A stretch of 64,000 bases of DNA from Bacillota bacterium (GTDB lineage: Bacteria > Bacillota > Dethiobacteria > DTU022), in the NCBI GenBank assembly GCA_033549065.1, contig JAWSUE010000003.1:1-64000 (forward strand), written 5' to 3'. A program made the translations under genes and the position numbers. Numbering within the stretch: the stretch's first letter is position 1; every line of letters starts with the position of its first letter. The notes beneath the pieces were generated by a model that saw nothing but the letters and a program-made list of their open reading frames with translations, searched no databases and was not told the DNA's origin. Positions 19,762-63,339 of the stretch are shown here, in pieces.

Positions 19762-21330
19762 CTAATTTTTGGGTTTTCCCTGATTTTTCCTGTAGGCTCT
19801 CCAGGTTGAAGCAAACTTCTCAGCATTAACCAGAGGATCCGGATCAATCTGGCCAATTGGGCAATTATGGGGTGCATTAAGAACCAGATCTGGATTGTTA
19901 CAGGCTTCGCCCGCAACCTGTCTGATGATTGCGGCGTACTCATCCAGGTCATCTTTCGAATACGACTCAGGCGGCTCGGGGGTGAATGGCTCAGGAATGA
20001 TTCGCGGATGATGACTCGTGAAATATGTTTGCAGGCCATAGTCCAGAATGCGGCGATTAATATCATCAGTTCCCACCCCGGTTTTATCCTTCAGATCGAT
20101 CCAGCTTAACCTGGCCTGCTCTATTCTCTGCCGGCCCTCACCCATGGGACAGCTAAGGCCCGGAATATCAAGCAGCTTCGCCAACAGGTAGTTGTTATTC
20201 AAGATTGAAAGCAGCGCTGCCATTTTCAAACCATCAGCACCAAGGCTTCTGATGAAAGCATAAGCCCTGACGAAAACGGGAGGAACCCCATGAAACTTTC
20301 TCAGTTTCCCGATAGAATCCGGCCGGTTATAGTCGAGGAAGTATTTTTCGCCGTCAAATTCAACGGTCGGGAGAGGGAGGAATTTTGCCAGTTTATCAAC
20401 CACTCCCTGTGCGCCGGCACCCGGCCCATGGCTGCCGTGAGGTGATGAGAAAGACTTATGCAGGTTGTAATGACATAAATCAAAACCCATATCCCTGGCT
20501 CTGACAATTCCCATCAGGCCGTTTGCATTGGCATGGTCATAACAGCAGAGCCCCCCAGCCGAATGAACCAGATCGGTGTATTCTCTGATCCGTTCATTAA
20601 ATATGCCTGTATCTTCGGGGTTTGTAATGAAAAGTGCCGCAGTTTTACCTGAAACCGAGGCCTTAAGCGCTTCCAGGTCGGGTAAACCGCTTTCATCCGG
20701 CATAAGAGTAATTACTTTATATCCTGCTGTACTGGCAGCCCCGGCATTACCGGGATGAGATAGAATGGTTGTGATAACCTCGTCTCTGGAGTTTTCCCCT
20801 TTTTCCCGGTGATAGGCCCTGATCACTGCGGCATTGGCATAGATCGCCTGAGAGCCTGACCCTGCCTGGAAGGAAAACTTATCCATACCAGATAGCTCTT
20901 TCAGGTATGATTCCAAACTATGGGTTAATTCCAAAATTCCCTGTAGGGTCCGATCATCCTGGTATGGATGCAGTTCGGCTAACTTATGATTGCGGACAAA
21001 TGTTTCATGTGCTTTGGGGCTGTACTTCATAGTGCAGGTTCCCTGGCCGAAATCGATAGCCAGATCGGCCCCGATTGTTTCCTGTGAAAGCCGCAAATAA
21101 TGTCTCAACACCTGCATCTGCCCCAGCTCAGGCAAAGCAGGTGATTTTTTTCGTCTTAACCCGGTCGGTATAAGTCCTGAAGGATCCCCGACAAATTCTT
21201 TAACCCCGGGTTCCGCTTCGGGTACCAGAATACCGCGCTCCCCGGGAGAGCCCATCTCCATTATTATCGGTTCATCCCACATGGCTGCATGGTAAGCTCT
21301 CAACCTCTTGCTTCTATCGGTGTTTTTCAT
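19762..21330 (-). CDS. Glycine dehydrogenase (decarboxylating) subunit 2-like protein
   Basis: A 522-residue PLP enzyme, the GcvPB-like half of a split P-protein. The PLP lysine lies in N-L-H-K-S-F-S-S-P-H-G-S-H-G-P-G, matching the family N-L-H-K-T-F-S-T-P-H-G-G-G-G-P-G except for S-H in the glycine-rich tail. The C-terminal A-P-H-N-C-P-I-G motif also departs from the usual A-P-H-T-T-P. It is longer than typical GcvPB (about 490). It overlaps its partner by one base (TGATG). No gcvT, gcvH or lipoate gene is in the window. It either works in glycine cleavage with distant genes, or is a divergent paralogue acting on another amino acid. Confidence 0.8.
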   Translation of the reverse strand: MKNTDRSKRLRAYHAAMWDEPIIMEMGSPGERGILVPEAEPGVKEFVGDPSGLIPTGLRRKKSPALPELGQMQVLRHYLRLSQETIGADLAIDFGQGTCTMKYSPKAHETFVRNHKLAELHPYQDDRTLQGILELTHSLESYLKELSGMDKFSFQAGSGSQAIYANAAVIRAYHREKGENSRDEVITTILSHPGNAGAASTAGYKVITLMPDESGLPDLEALKASVSGKTAALFITNPEDTGIFNERIREYTDLVHSAGGLCCYDHANANGLMGIVRARDMGFDLCHYNLHKSFSSPHGSHGPGAGAQGVVDKLAKFLPLPTVEFDGEKYFLDYNRPDSIGKLRKFHGVPPVFVRAYAFIRSLGADGLKMAALLSILNNNYLLAKLLDIPGLSCPMGEGRQRIEQARLSWIDLKDKTGVGTDDINRRILDYGLQTYFTSHHPRIIPEPFTPEPPESYSKDDLDEYAAIIRQVAGEACNNPDLVLNAPHNCPIGQIDPDPLVNAEKFASTWRAYRKNQGKPKN

Positions 21331-56595: not shown

Positions 56596-57537
56596 TTAAA
56601 TTCTTGCCTCGCCGATCGATGTGATCTCTACCAGGCTGTGGGAAAAAACTGCCGAAACCACCCTGCCTGATTCAATCTTCATTTCCAGGGTAGTTATATC
56701 AGGCCCACCCAACTCTATACTGCCACCCGATTCAATTTCGAGGACAACTTTACCATCTGCTGCAGAACTTTGCTGATCAAGCTCTCCGGCAGCTAACACG
56801 GCCAGGCCGAGTGCGACAGAACCGGTTCCACAGGATGGTTCAAAGATATCATCCTGAACATAGTGGGGAAAAACTATCCGCATATTGCCTCTGCGTTCAG
56901 GATGCCAGTCGTAAAGCGCAACATTTGGTTCAACCTCTCCTGTTTCAGATAAAAACCGGTTTTGAATATCCCGCATAGTATCTCTTGTTTTCTGATTCCA
57001 GGTTATAAATTCTGTACCGGGATACCTCTTGATAAACTGGTCAGCGTTGATTACCAAAAACTTTCCGGCTCGCATTACCTCCAAACCATCAAGCATCAGC
57101 CGGAAGACCCCTCTTTCATAACACTCTTTGACGAAACATTCCATAACAGTTCTTACCCTGACGGCTTTACCTTTAGCAGATTCTATTGAAAGTGCCGTTG
57201 GGCCGCATTCTGTATGAAGCATTACCTCGGAAGTAATTCCAGATCGGTCAACACCGAATAAATCTCCCAACTCGGTTTCGATCAGCGCAGCTCCCAGAAC
57301 CTGTGTAAAACCACCACAGGCACTGATAAAACATGGTATTGTCGGTTCGGCAATTTTAACATCAATTTCACCCGGGTTACCGGCAGGATATAGAATTCCT
57401 GCTTCATGGGCATGCAGGTAATTAGGTTCCATCAGTTTAACGGCGATCTCCAATTCACGTCCCACGGGAATTTGATCCCCCCTGAGCAGTATGATCAGGT
57501 TGCCGCCCATGTGACCGCGAACAAAATCAAGTTTCAT
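56596..57537 (-). CDS. DapF-fold epimerase/isomerase, divergent
   Basis: A 313-residue protein with the two-cysteine layout of the diaminopimelate epimerase fold: S-A-C-G-G-F-T near residue 93 and E-P-S-C-G-T-G-S near 237. Canonical DapF has N-G-N-x-D-F at the start and G-N-G-x-R near the first Cys. Neither is present here, and the protein is about 35 residues longer. It may be an amino-acid racemase, a PhzF/PrpF-like isomerase or a divergent DapF. It follows the selenoprotein candidate by 93 bp and ends in its own terminator. Confidence 0.65.
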   Translation of the reverse strand: MKLDFVRGHMGGNLIILLRGDQIPVGRELEIAVKLMEPNYLHAHEAGILYPAGNPGEIDVKIAEPTIPCFISACGGFTQVLGAALIETELGDLFGVDRSGITSEVMLHTECGPTALSIESAKGKAVRVRTVMECFVKECYERGVFRLMLDGLEVMRAGKFLVINADQFIKRYPGTEFITWNQKTRDTMRDIQNRFLSETGEVEPNVALYDWHPERRGNMRIVFPHYVQDDIFEPSCGTGSVALGLAVLAAGELDQQSSAADGKVVLEIESGGSIELGGPDITTLEMKIESGRVVSAVFSHSLVEITSIGEARI

Positions 57538-57618: not shown

Positions 57619-57639
57619 AAGGAGTGAAACTCACCCCTT
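57619..57639 (-). promoter_or_regulatory. Candidate bacterial SECIS element
   Basis: On the minus strand AAGGGGTGA (57639-57631), loop GTT (57630-57628), then TCACTCCTT (57627-57619) form a 9-bp stem with one G-U pair. The loop begins 25 nt after the in-frame TGA at 57657-57655. Known bacterial SECIS rules (short stem, small apical loop with G in the first two positions, loop about 16-37 nt from the TGA) are met. On the plus strand the G-U becomes an A-C mismatch, so pairing is complete only in the coding-strand RNA. No T-run follows, which argues against a terminator. Confidence 0.65.
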
Positions 57640-58029
57640 GAGGTGGAAAAGGTTTCAGTAGCATTTTCCATACTTGCGTACATCGTTCATCCTGGTCGGA
57701 AGACAGGGGCAAACATTTTCCGGGATATTCTCAAAACGGCATGGGCAGTAAAAATCGCCAAAGAGTCTATTCTTTTCTATTAAGCCTTCCATCACCAGTT
57801 CTTTATCCTCGTTGAAAATGTAACCTCGCAGGCGGGCATAGTTTTCAGCCCTGTTGCGCATTTCAACCTCGGGTTCCTGGGCAAAACGGGATGCTTTAAC
57901 CTCAGGTTCTGTTTCGAGGATTTCCAGCTCAGCGCCGCAAACAGTACATACAACTTTATTGCCTACCTCAGGTTCGCCGTTATAAATGAACGAAACACGG
58001 CAGACTTCACAATATATTTTATGCTTCAC
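57631..58029 (-). CDS. Ferredoxin-thioredoxin reductase-like catalytic protein, probable selenoprotein (TGA = Sec125)
   Basis: Reading through the in-frame TGA at 57657-57655 gives 132 residues ending at a second TGA (57633-57631). Stopping at the first TGA gives 124. Residues 7-31 form a LysW-like zinc ribbon (C-E-V-C ... C-T-V-C-G-A-E-L-E-I). The catalytic part has C95-P-C97, C107-P-C109 and Y-G-K-C123-Y-[TGA125]-N-L-F. The family normally ends Y-G-x-C-Y-C-G-L-Y/F; in plant-type enzymes this last Cys is the partner of the active-site disulfide next to the [4Fe-4S] cluster. The TGA replaces exactly that Cys, and the tail continues after it. The GTG start at 58029 (AAAGGGG 9 nt upstream) overlaps the glutaredoxin gene. 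A plain truncation with loss of the Cys is the alternative. Confidence 0.72.
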
Positions 58030-58267
58030 TGTCAAGCGCCCCTTTAATTTCCTCCTCTTTAAATCCCTGTATAACCTGATCGTTGATCACGGTAACCGGG
58101 AATGAGCGCCTTCCGGTCAACTTTTCTACTTCAGCCAAGGCCTGTTTCTGGTCGTCACCTTCAGCCAGATCAACTTCTACAACATCATATTCGACTCCAT
58201 GATCATCAAGCAGTTTCTTCACCTTTTTGCACCACGGGCATGTGCTAAGCGAATATACCTTAACCAT
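58019..58267 (-). CDS. Glutaredoxin-family protein
   Basis: An 82-residue thioredoxin-fold protein with active site C-P-W-C (residues about 9-12), a cis-Pro region S-F-P-V-T-V and G-F-K-E-E at the end, close to glutaredoxin/NrdH. Start choice is the second ATG (58267), 8 nt after AAAGAGG; an ATG at 58270 is possible. It lies 14 bp after serA and overlaps the FTR-like gene, so it is the obvious substrate or partner of that reductase. Confidence 0.9.
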   Translation of the reverse strand: MVKVYSLSTCPWCKKVKKLLDDHGVEYDVVEVDLAEGDDQKQALAEVEKLTGRRSFPVTVINDQVIQGFKEEEIKGALDSEA

Positions 58268-58281
58268 CATACACACCTCTT

Positions 58282-59886
58282 TCAGATTAATTTTGCACTC
58301 CTGTATACAATATTTTCCAATACAATAAACCTCGCTGTATCAATAATATCAAGATCTCTGACTTTCGCAACCTTTTCGGGTTTCATCTTTTCGTCAACCT
58401 GAAGTACCATCATAGCTTCTCCGCCGGCTTCCACCCTGCCCAACTGCATTGAAGCAATATTTACATTTTCATTGCCTAAAAGTGTCCCGATTCTTCCGAC
58501 CACTCCCGGTTTGTCATGATGAGTAGTAATAAGCATATACTTTTCGGGAATAATTTCAATCCGGTAATCATCTACTCTTACAATGCGCATTTCATTATTA
58601 AGCAGTGTTCCCGAGATGTGGTGTTGTTCCTGGCCTGAACGGGCGCTCATTGTGATCAGGTTGTTGTAATTTTTAACTTCTGTGGTAGAAACTTCCCTCA
58701 CGGCTATACCCCTTGCCCTGGCAATATACGGCGCGTTGACCCAGTTTACATCATCCCCGACGACATGGCGCAGAAATCCGATCAGGCAGGATGTTGTCAA
58801 TGGTGCCAAGGGTAAAGTAGATACTTCACCACTATAAGTTAATTCGATCTCATCAACTGATCCACCGAACATCTGAAGATAAAAACTGCCCAGAATTCTT
58901 GTCAGCGGCAGATAGGGTTCCAAAACTGCCCTGGTTTCCGGCATTAGGGCGGGAACGTTAACTGCAGATACAATCGGTTCTCCCCGAAGAGCTTTAATTA
59001 CCTGCTCCGATACCTGAAGGGCAACATTTTCCTGTGCTTCGCGGGTCAGCGCTCCCAGGTGTGGGGTAACAATTACATTATCCAACTCAAGCAGATTGCA
59101 ATTTTCCGGGGGTTCCTGTTCAAATACATCAAGCGCTGCTCCTGCCACCCGGCCTTTTTTTAATGCTTCATAAAGAGCTTGCTCATCGATCAAACCGCCG
59201 CGGGCACAGTTAATAATCCGGATCCCCGGTTTTAACATGGCAAATTCTTTCTCACCAATAATATGTTGTGTGGAAGCATTCAAAGGCAGGTGCAGGGTAA
59301 TAAAATCTGATTGCTTCAACAAATCTTCCAGCGTTACCATGGTGATACCGATTTTTTCTGCCTGATCAGCAGAAATATGGGGATCGTAGCCCACGGTTGT
59401 CATGTTCATCGCCCTCGCCCGACGGGCCACTTCACTACCGATACGGCCGACACCGATGATTCCGAGAATCTTTTTATTAAGTTCTACTCCGGTATATTCA
59501 GACCGCTTCCATTCACCGCATTTAACCGAGCGATTAGCCTCGGTTATATTTCTGGCCATGGATGTCAGGTGAGCTATGGCCAGTTCTGCTGTTGAAATTG
59601 TATTTCCATGAGGTGCATTAATTACAATAATCCCCTTCTCGGTCGCCTTATCGAGATCGATATTATCAACTCCCACACCGGCCCGGCCGATTACTTTCAA
59701 ATTCTTTCCGGCATCAAGAACATGGGCATTGACTTTAGTCCTGCTCCGAACCAACAGCGCATCATAAGTGCCGATTTCACTTATCAGCTGCTCGGGGGTA
59801 ATATCAGGTTGATAGGATACCTCCGCAAACTCCTCCAGTATTTTCAAGCCCTCTTCAGAAAGGGCATCGCTGACCAAAACCTTCAA
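58282..59886 (-). CDS. serA: D-3-phosphoglycerate dehydrogenase
   Basis: A 534-residue NAD-dependent enzyme for the first step of serine synthesis. The Rossmann motif is G-V-G-R-I-G-S-E-V near residue 147. Catalytic residues lie in N-C-A-R-G-G-L-I-D, the E-Q-E-P-P stretch and T-P-H-L-G-A. An intervening ASB domain and a C-terminal ACT domain (about 455-525) make it the long, feedback-regulated form. TTG start at 59886 behind GGAGGTG. It heads the serA-glutaredoxin-FTR run. Confidence 0.97.
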
Positions 59887-62664: not shown

Positions 62665-63339
62665 TTATACCCAGTCCAGTTTCTCCAGCTGTTTGTTTTC
62701 ACCAATAGCGACGATTATATCGCCTGCTTCAACAACATCTTCGGCAACAGGTGAAATATTCGTGCTGCCCCCGTTATTGCGTCTGAAAGCAATGACGCTG
62801 ACGCCGTAGCGCGCTCTCAGGTTGAGTTCCAACAGCGTTTTACCGACCATCTCAGCCGGTGCCTTTACTTCCACAACACTGTAATCATCCGACAGCTCGA
62901 TCATGTCAATAATGGTCGGTGCAATTAAGCTGCGGGCGATTTTTTGCCCCATGTCACGCTCCGGATAAATTACCCTGTTTATACCGATTTTTTCCAGAAC
63001 TTTACCATGAAGGTCTGTCTGAGCTTTAGCCACAATATACCTGGCTTCCTTTTCGATCAGCAGAATTGCAGCCATTATACTGGCCTGCACATCAAAACCA
63101 ATGGCTAATACAATTGCATCAAAATCTCTTACGCCAAGGGCTTTAACGCAACTTTCGGAAGTGATATCAGCAGAAACTGCATCCGTTACGTCACTGCTGA
63201 TCTGCTGAACTAAGGTTTCATCCTTATCAACCACCATAACATCATGGCCGGCATCGCAAAGTGTTCGGGCAACACTTTTGCCAAAACGTCCAGCGCCAAT
63301 TACCAAAAAAGACTTTTTCAAATTAAGGACCTCCATCAA
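62665..63339 (-). CDS. Potassium channel regulator, single-RCK type (KtrA/TrkA-N)
   Basis: A 224-residue protein with one RCK unit: nucleotide motif V-I-G-A-G-R-F-G-K-S-V near residues 13-23, acidic strand end V-V-D-K-D-E, and RCK-C domain at about 140-222. It forms octameric rings that gate KtrB-type channels. It lies 15 bp after the channel gene, its likely partner. Presence of both a KtrA and a TrkA regulator for one visible channel is notable. Confidence 0.92.
   Translation of the reverse strand: MMEVLNLKKSFLVIGAGRFGKSVARTLCDAGHDVMVVDKDETLVQQISSDVTDAVSADITSESCVKALGVRDFDAIVLAIGFDVQASIMAAILLIEKEARYIVAKAQTDLHGKVLEKIGINRVIYPERDMGQKIARSLIAPTIIDMIELSDDYSVVEVKAPAEMVGKTLLELNLRARYGVSVIAFRRNNGGSTNISPVAEDVVEAGDIIVAIGENKQLEKLDWV

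Follow-up and report, generated by a model that had tools for sequence, protein, structure and literature searches.

The ferredoxin:thioredoxin reductases (FTR) of plants and cyanobacteria need a variable subunit and reduce thioredoxins. In their structures (Synechocystis numbering) the cluster ligands are Cys55, Cys74, Cys76 and Cys85, and Cys57 and Cys87 form the redox pair. The ferredoxin:disulfide reductase (FDR) of Methanosarcina acetivorans (structure 4tpu) reportedly reduces methanoredoxin, a glutaredoxin-like protein; the work of Prakash et al. 2018 on this enzyme is cited in PMC7278568. In the solved structure 7PWE, from Desulfotalea psychrophila, a glutaredoxin domain and an FDR domain are found in one chain; our literature search retrieved no paper on this structure or on a ferredoxin:glutaredoxin reductase.

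Selenocysteine (Sec) has also been predicted in this family. A Sec-containing FTR was proposed in 2008 by Zhang and Gladyshev from two Global Ocean Sampling sequences, one of them with both redox cysteines replaced (PMC2398784), and an inventory of 2026 lists it as NF041072, with a CxU motif and two Sec residues (PMC13188914). No other FTR entry appears in the passages found of that selenoprotein inventory (PMC13188914). A preliminary description of the DNA analysed here had doubted whether such a form was already on record: a Sec-containing FTR had indeed been predicted, but the single-Sec subfamily presented below had not.

The gene studied belongs to an uncultured anaerobic bacterium and lies in a window of 64,000 nucleotides, this being the whole stretch of DNA that was analysed. 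The Sec codon, the SECIS, the domains and the gene pair, as identified by sequence analysis, are located as follows:

57619..57639, minus strand: predicted bacterial SECIS hairpin, AAGGGGUGA-GUU-UCACUCCUU, of 9 bp, its loop beginning with G and lying 24 nt after the UGA
57631..57633, minus strand: second in-frame TGA, taken as the true stop, within the 5' arm of the SECIS
57631..58029, minus strand: predicted selenoprotein gene, with a GTG start at 58029, 132 residues including Sec125, and the stop TGA at 57631-57633
57634..57873, minus strand: FTR/FDR catalytic domain, residues 53-132, assigned by Pfam match and fold
57655..57657, minus strand: TGA codon for Sec, residue 125, at the position held in FTR by the final Cys of the CxC motif
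57880..58029, minus strand: N-terminal domain, residues 1-50, CxxC...CxxC, a putative zinc ribbon of LysW type (Zn or Fe)
58019..58276, minus strand: gene for a glutaredoxin of at most 85 aa with a CPWC motif, sharing 11 nt with the FTR gene
58282..59886, minus strand: serA (phosphoglycerate dehydrogenase), immediately preceding the gene for the glutaredoxin

From the GTG at 58029 up to the first TGA, the frame gives a product ending in ...CPCRFENIPENVCPCLPTRMNDVRKYGKCY. When this TGA is read as Sec, the minus-strand reading from 58029 to 57634 yields ...FYCPCRFENIPENVCPCLPTRMNDVRKYGKCY-U-NLFHLKG, followed by the second TGA at 57631-57633. The preliminary description had placed the first TGA at the last Cys of the family, which forms the disulfide, and had noticed that the NLFHLKG tail is kept beyond it and then ends at a stop; both the assignment (within the motif CPC, CPC, CxC) and the coordinates of the tail are borne out. 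As the TGA looks like the end of the frame, proteins of this kind are liable to lose their last catalytic residue in automatic annotation. The gene almost certainly encodes a small iron-sulfur enzyme in which selenocysteine replaces one active-site cysteine.

In the predicted protein, the LysW-like zinc ribbon comes first and the FTR/FDR catalytic domain follows. The match to the Pfam model FeThRed_B (PF02943) extends across the TGA, from residue 57 to residue 129 (45.9 bits, with a cut-off of 22; E = 6.4e-12), and this model is matched by all 28 aligned members of the group, while the zinc ribbon match (residues 7-42) is weak, its 21.3 bits falling below the cut-off of 27. An AlphaFold2 model built on the alignment of 28 sequences, with Sec modelled as Cys, has a mean pLDDT of 96.3 and a pTM of 0.89. 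Foldseek relates the catalytic part of this model to 7pwe, to the plant and cyanobacterial FTR (1dj7, 2pu9) and to 4tpu, and its N-terminal part to LysW (3wwl). Throughout the alignment the motif residues of CPC, CPC and CxC do not vary: Cys95, Cys97, Cys107, Cys109 and Cys123 are always Cys, and position 125 is always Cys or Sec. By analogy with the FTR structures, Cys95, Cys107, Cys109 and Cys123 are expected to be the [4Fe-4S] ligands, with Cys97-Sec125 as the redox pair. In FTR, the counterpart of Sec125 interacts with the cluster in the half-reduced state; Sec125 would be the cluster-facing partner of the redox bond, and its selenolate would take the role of the FTR residue. Chemistry of the FTR type with the cluster is highly probable.

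The closest described selenoprotein, FtrB_double_U (NF041072), shares with the window protein the FTR catalytic domain and a Sec at a redox-active Cys position. Its model is matched weakly by all 28 aligned members (best E = 1.2e-7), the window protein reaching 22.3 bits, below the cut-off of 160. Unlike FtrB_double_U, the window protein has a single Sec (CxU), the Cys97 of its CPC motif being Cys in 28/28 sequences, and it possesses an N-terminal zinc ribbon and a paired glutaredoxin gene. Thus, by its sequence features, it belongs to a distinct single-Sec FTR subfamily. With the M. acetivorans FDR it shares an FTR domain accompanied by an extra metal domain (CxxC/CxxC), and a Tyr that separates the final two cysteines of the motif. 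However, the extra domain of that FDR is a C-terminal rubredoxin, and it has no Sec, whereas the window protein carries an N-terminal LysW-like ribbon; no C-terminal rubredoxin domain is present in it, only 7 residues following Sec. The plant and cyanobacterial FTR catalytic subunits (1dj7, 2pu9) have the same fold and the same CPC, CPC, CxC pattern but neither Sec nor zinc ribbon. As for 7PWE, its joined glutaredoxin and FDR domains resemble the adjacent gene pair of the window, although there they are fused, contain Cys only and gave no zinc ribbon match.

The product of the gene upstream has the active-site sequence STCPWCKK and matches Pfam Glutaredoxin with E = 1.9e-18. Among solved structures it is closest to the glutaredoxins 3nzn and 5cax (5cax being the methanoredoxin of M. 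acetivorans), with 7pwe in fourth place, and by this similarity it is a methanoredoxin-like glutaredoxin. The same glutaredoxin gene immediately precedes the FTR gene in 67 of 68 bacterial and archaeal loci, in Sec and Cys forms alike. Some of these loci duplicate a gene already counted; of the 59 distinct genes, too, only L069 lacks the glutaredoxin, because its contig ends 355 nt upstream. The other neighbours, serA and a DapF-like gene, are adjacent only in the window's own family, so that serA is regarded as context and not as part of the module. There is no dedicated ferredoxin gene within the FTR-glutaredoxin pair. In 7pwe, the N half matches the glutaredoxin and the C half matches FTR, and this fusion, together with the conserved neighbourhood, points to the glutaredoxin as the acceptor. 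Thus, the partner is likely to be the adjacent glutaredoxin rather than thioredoxin, and we consider it probable that this glutaredoxin is the main acceptor. It could be argued that an FTR-like enzyme which does contain Sec has thioredoxin or some other disulfide as its main acceptor, the glutaredoxin being co-expressed or serving in another thiol pathway. Plant-type FTR does reduce thioredoxins (complexes 7bzk and 2pu9), and acceptors are not readable from sequence; however, the glutaredoxin is adjacent at every locus with upstream sequence, other tested neighbours vary, and both domains share one chain in 7pwe, which makes this alternative rather unlikely.

Some peculiarities were observed among these neighbours. 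At L038 (genome G057, minus strand), the glutaredoxin gene upstream of the Sec-FTR has a TGA where the first Cys of the active site would be encoded (UPWC), with a weak hairpin (CAAGC-AGUU-GCUUG, -4.4 kcal/mol) 17 nt further on. Both members of this pair may be selenoproteins; this is seen in one genome only and the hairpin is weak, so the TGA may also be a sequencing error. At L040 (genome G052), the glutaredoxin upstream of the Sec-FTR is split over two frames, by a frameshift or an assembly error. Downstream of the gene pair in the window, positions 56596-57537 encode a protein of 313 aa with no Pfam match and a weak match to histidine racemase (E = 0.019), which is perhaps an epimerase of DapF fold.

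The glutaredoxin:FDR reading presupposes that the TGA at codon 125 is translated. Otherwise, the TGA would be a real stop, and the functional product would have 124 residues ending in ...GKCY, the similarity downstream being a remnant. This would accord with the standard genetic code and with the use of TGA as a common stop in the genome; in the window, TGA otherwise behaves as an ordinary stop and ends 13 of the 44 stop-to-stop frames of more than 200 codons. The homologues speak against it. Once duplicates are removed, TGA occupies the codon in 33 distinct relatives and TGC or TGT (Cys) in 26 homologues, and neither TAA nor TAG occurs there in any of these 33 Sec and 26 Cys forms; the column thus contains TGA or Cys codons only, the point on which the preliminary description had proposed that homologues be compared. 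A truncated product would moreover lack the redox position at which every Cys form has its Cys.

With regard to distribution, the gene was found in 27 of 60 related genomes, with exactly one in-frame TGA in 26 of them and none in G038. Class-wide, 33 of the 34 full-length matches from the 98 available genomes have the TGA. A search of public genome contigs gave 34 loci: the codon at the column is mostly TGA in Bacillota, as in the complete genome NZ_CP017634.1, and TGC or TGT in Atribacterota and in archaea of Thermoplasmata type. Three Cys forms (L101, L102 and L104) come from more distant Bacillota. A tree of 59 ingroup sequences implies at least 4 changes between Sec and Cys, with weak deep support; its deep forks are left open by the small number of columns, and a single origin of Sec is compatible with it. 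The viral collection searched yielded no relative of the gene. One of the public loci, L055 (JAGUZX010000038.1), is labelled Desulfovibrio sp., but its sequence is identical to that of G016, placed in the window's own family, and the label is probably wrong.

The codons beyond the TGA argue further against a stop, NLFHLK being kept through many silent changes. Over the five codons after the TGA, pN/pS in frame is 0.10 for the 24 closest sequences and 0.25 for all 33, against 0.67 and 3.2 (24 closest) or 0.71 and 2.3 (all 33) in the other two frames. These codons are therefore under strong purifying selection. Among the 24 sequences, codon 2 after the TGA encodes Leu in 21 and codon 5 in all 24, by means of many different Leu codons. 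At codon 8 the 33 Sec forms have TGA (23), TAG (4), TAA (4) or CAG (2), an exchange which indicates that the second TGA is the stop. The 23 Sec forms with TGA here, out of 33, end at another UGA situated in the 5' arm of their SECIS hairpin, so that within 24 nt of a single gene UGA serves first for Sec and then for termination. Elsewhere in the window, two further in-frame TGA codons (62752-62754, plus strand; 20514-20516, minus strand) pass a simple bSECIS filter; they have no homology support and are probably due to chance.

A search near the Sec codon for a SECIS revealed the hairpin at 57619..57639, which fits the bacterial geometry. The limits published for bSECIS elements in the 2026 inventory (PMC13188914) allow 3-9 nt for the loop and 4-16 bp for the stem, and they require a G in the first two loop positions, a distance of 16-37 nt from the UGA and an MFE of at most -7.5 kcal/mol. 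The window hairpin falls within all of them, with a loop of 3 nt (GUU), a stem of 9 bp, a distance of 24 nt and -10.2 kcal/mol. The geometry recurs in 33/33 Sec forms, with the loop at 23-24 nt; when the energy limit is included, 23 of the 33 pass, the other ten being weaker than -7.5 kcal/mol. The whole SECIS model is passed by only 3 of the 26 Cys forms and by 43 of 3300 shuffled sequences (1.3%), and the hairpin is not a feature of Cys forms. It spans the gene's own stop codon, and thus half of it is free of coding constraint. In the ungapped alignment, changes on both sides occur at 7/7 counted pairs (22 cells versus 7.5 in shuffles), and slid versions of the hairpin alignment score worse for covariation. 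No SECIS match was obtained in the Rfam search, and the 51-nt stretch after the UGA, when folded whole, is little more stable than its shuffles (z = -0.90). The signal thus resides in the local hairpin and its covariation and not in the stability of the whole stretch. Taking into account this covarying hairpin, the codon column and the conserved tail, we regard a real stop at codon 125 as very improbable.

The genome from which the window comes (2.39 Mb in 61 contigs, 97.8% complete) was checked for the Sec genes named in the preliminary description; selA, selB, selD and tRNA-Sec were all detected by sequence analysis. On contig C14, selB (384 bits), selA (592 bits) and selD (381 bits) lie side by side, and the tRNA-Sec gene is on C12 (72 bits; anticodon TCA according to ARAGORN). 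The selD gene (L079, G000:C14:30023-30955) itself contains one in-frame TGA and is probably a selenoprotein gene too. In the search of relatives, selB was present in all 26 genomes with the Sec form except G007 and G034, both of which have tRNA-Sec. Neither selB over the cut-off nor tRNA-Sec was found in any of the 18 Atribacterota and archaeal genomes with Cys forms, and six Bacillota genomes with Cys forms have selB over the cut-off. Sec forms are thus found only in genomes able to make Sec, and Cys forms in genomes with and without this ability. This selB contrast holds only against Atribacterota and archaea; inside the class, the presence of selB does not separate genomes with the gene from those lacking it, because nearly all genomes of the class have selB. 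Many of these have selB without a Sec-FTR gene, so that the gene is not essential.

The presence of this machinery also bears on the idea that the UGA stands for some other amino acid, such as Trp, owing to a suppressor or to recoding of UGA. Nothing was found in support of it, and it appears extremely improbable given that UGA ends many genes in the window, that tRNA-Sec(UCA) and the Sec machinery are present, and that the homologous residue is always Cys. A sequencing error or a pseudogene, conceivable because most sequences come from metagenome-assembled genomes, has a practically negligible probability: the codon is found again in dozens of assemblies, the rest of the frame is intact and conserved, and 33 distinct sequences, one of them from the complete genome NZ_CP017634.1, rule out an error. 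From the sequence data as a whole, Sec insertion at codon 125 can be predicted with near certainty.

The product of the gene is probably a disulfide reductase of ferredoxin:glutaredoxin type whose Cys97 and Sec125 form a selenenylsulfide next to a [4Fe-4S] cluster, Sec being incorporated by means of SelB, tRNA-Sec and the hairpin. The preliminary description had read the gene as a selenoprotein form of a ferredoxin-dependent disulfide reductase; the analysis supports this, and none of the refuting results that it had named turned up. From the related enzymes we infer the chemistry of the cluster, ferredoxin as donor, the glutaredoxin as acceptor and the direction of flow, and the following sequence of events can be proposed. 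Translation would begin with the GTG at 58029, inside the 3' end of the glutaredoxin gene, and UGA codon 125 would be decoded as Sec by SelB and tRNA-Sec, directed by the hairpin downstream. In the folded enzyme, four cysteines would hold the [4Fe-4S] cluster, with Cys97 and Sec125 forming the selenenylsulfide beside it. Electrons from reduced ferredoxin would reach the cluster one at a time, perhaps by way of the CxxC/CxxC domain at the N-terminus, and the cluster would reduce the Cys97-Sec125 bond in two one-electron steps. Later, Cys97 would attack the disulfide of the partner glutaredoxin (CPWC), which would hand the electrons on. It may be speculated that the advantage of selenium is to make the one-electron steps faster or to confer resistance to over-oxidation.

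In a wider perspective, we tentatively suggest, as a possibility somewhat short of an even chance, that ferredoxin, FDR and glutaredoxin, in this order of electron flow, make up a widespread anaerobic two-gene module independent of NADPH and glutathione, and that in the bacterial Sec form selenium, placed beside the [4Fe-4S] cluster, acts during turnover as a transient fifth ligand of a cluster iron, which would be a natural selenolate-bound cluster intermediate.

With these results, a prediction based on two marine reads becomes a well-supported selenoprotein subfamily in many anaerobic Bacillota, including one complete genome, that of Candidatus Formimonas warabiya DCMF. A Sec at the cluster-facing position lets one ask what role selenium plays beside a [4Fe-4S] cluster and offers Se as a spectroscopic label. 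In addition, the conserved glutaredoxin-FDR pair suggests how anaerobes could reduce their glutaredoxins without glutathione.
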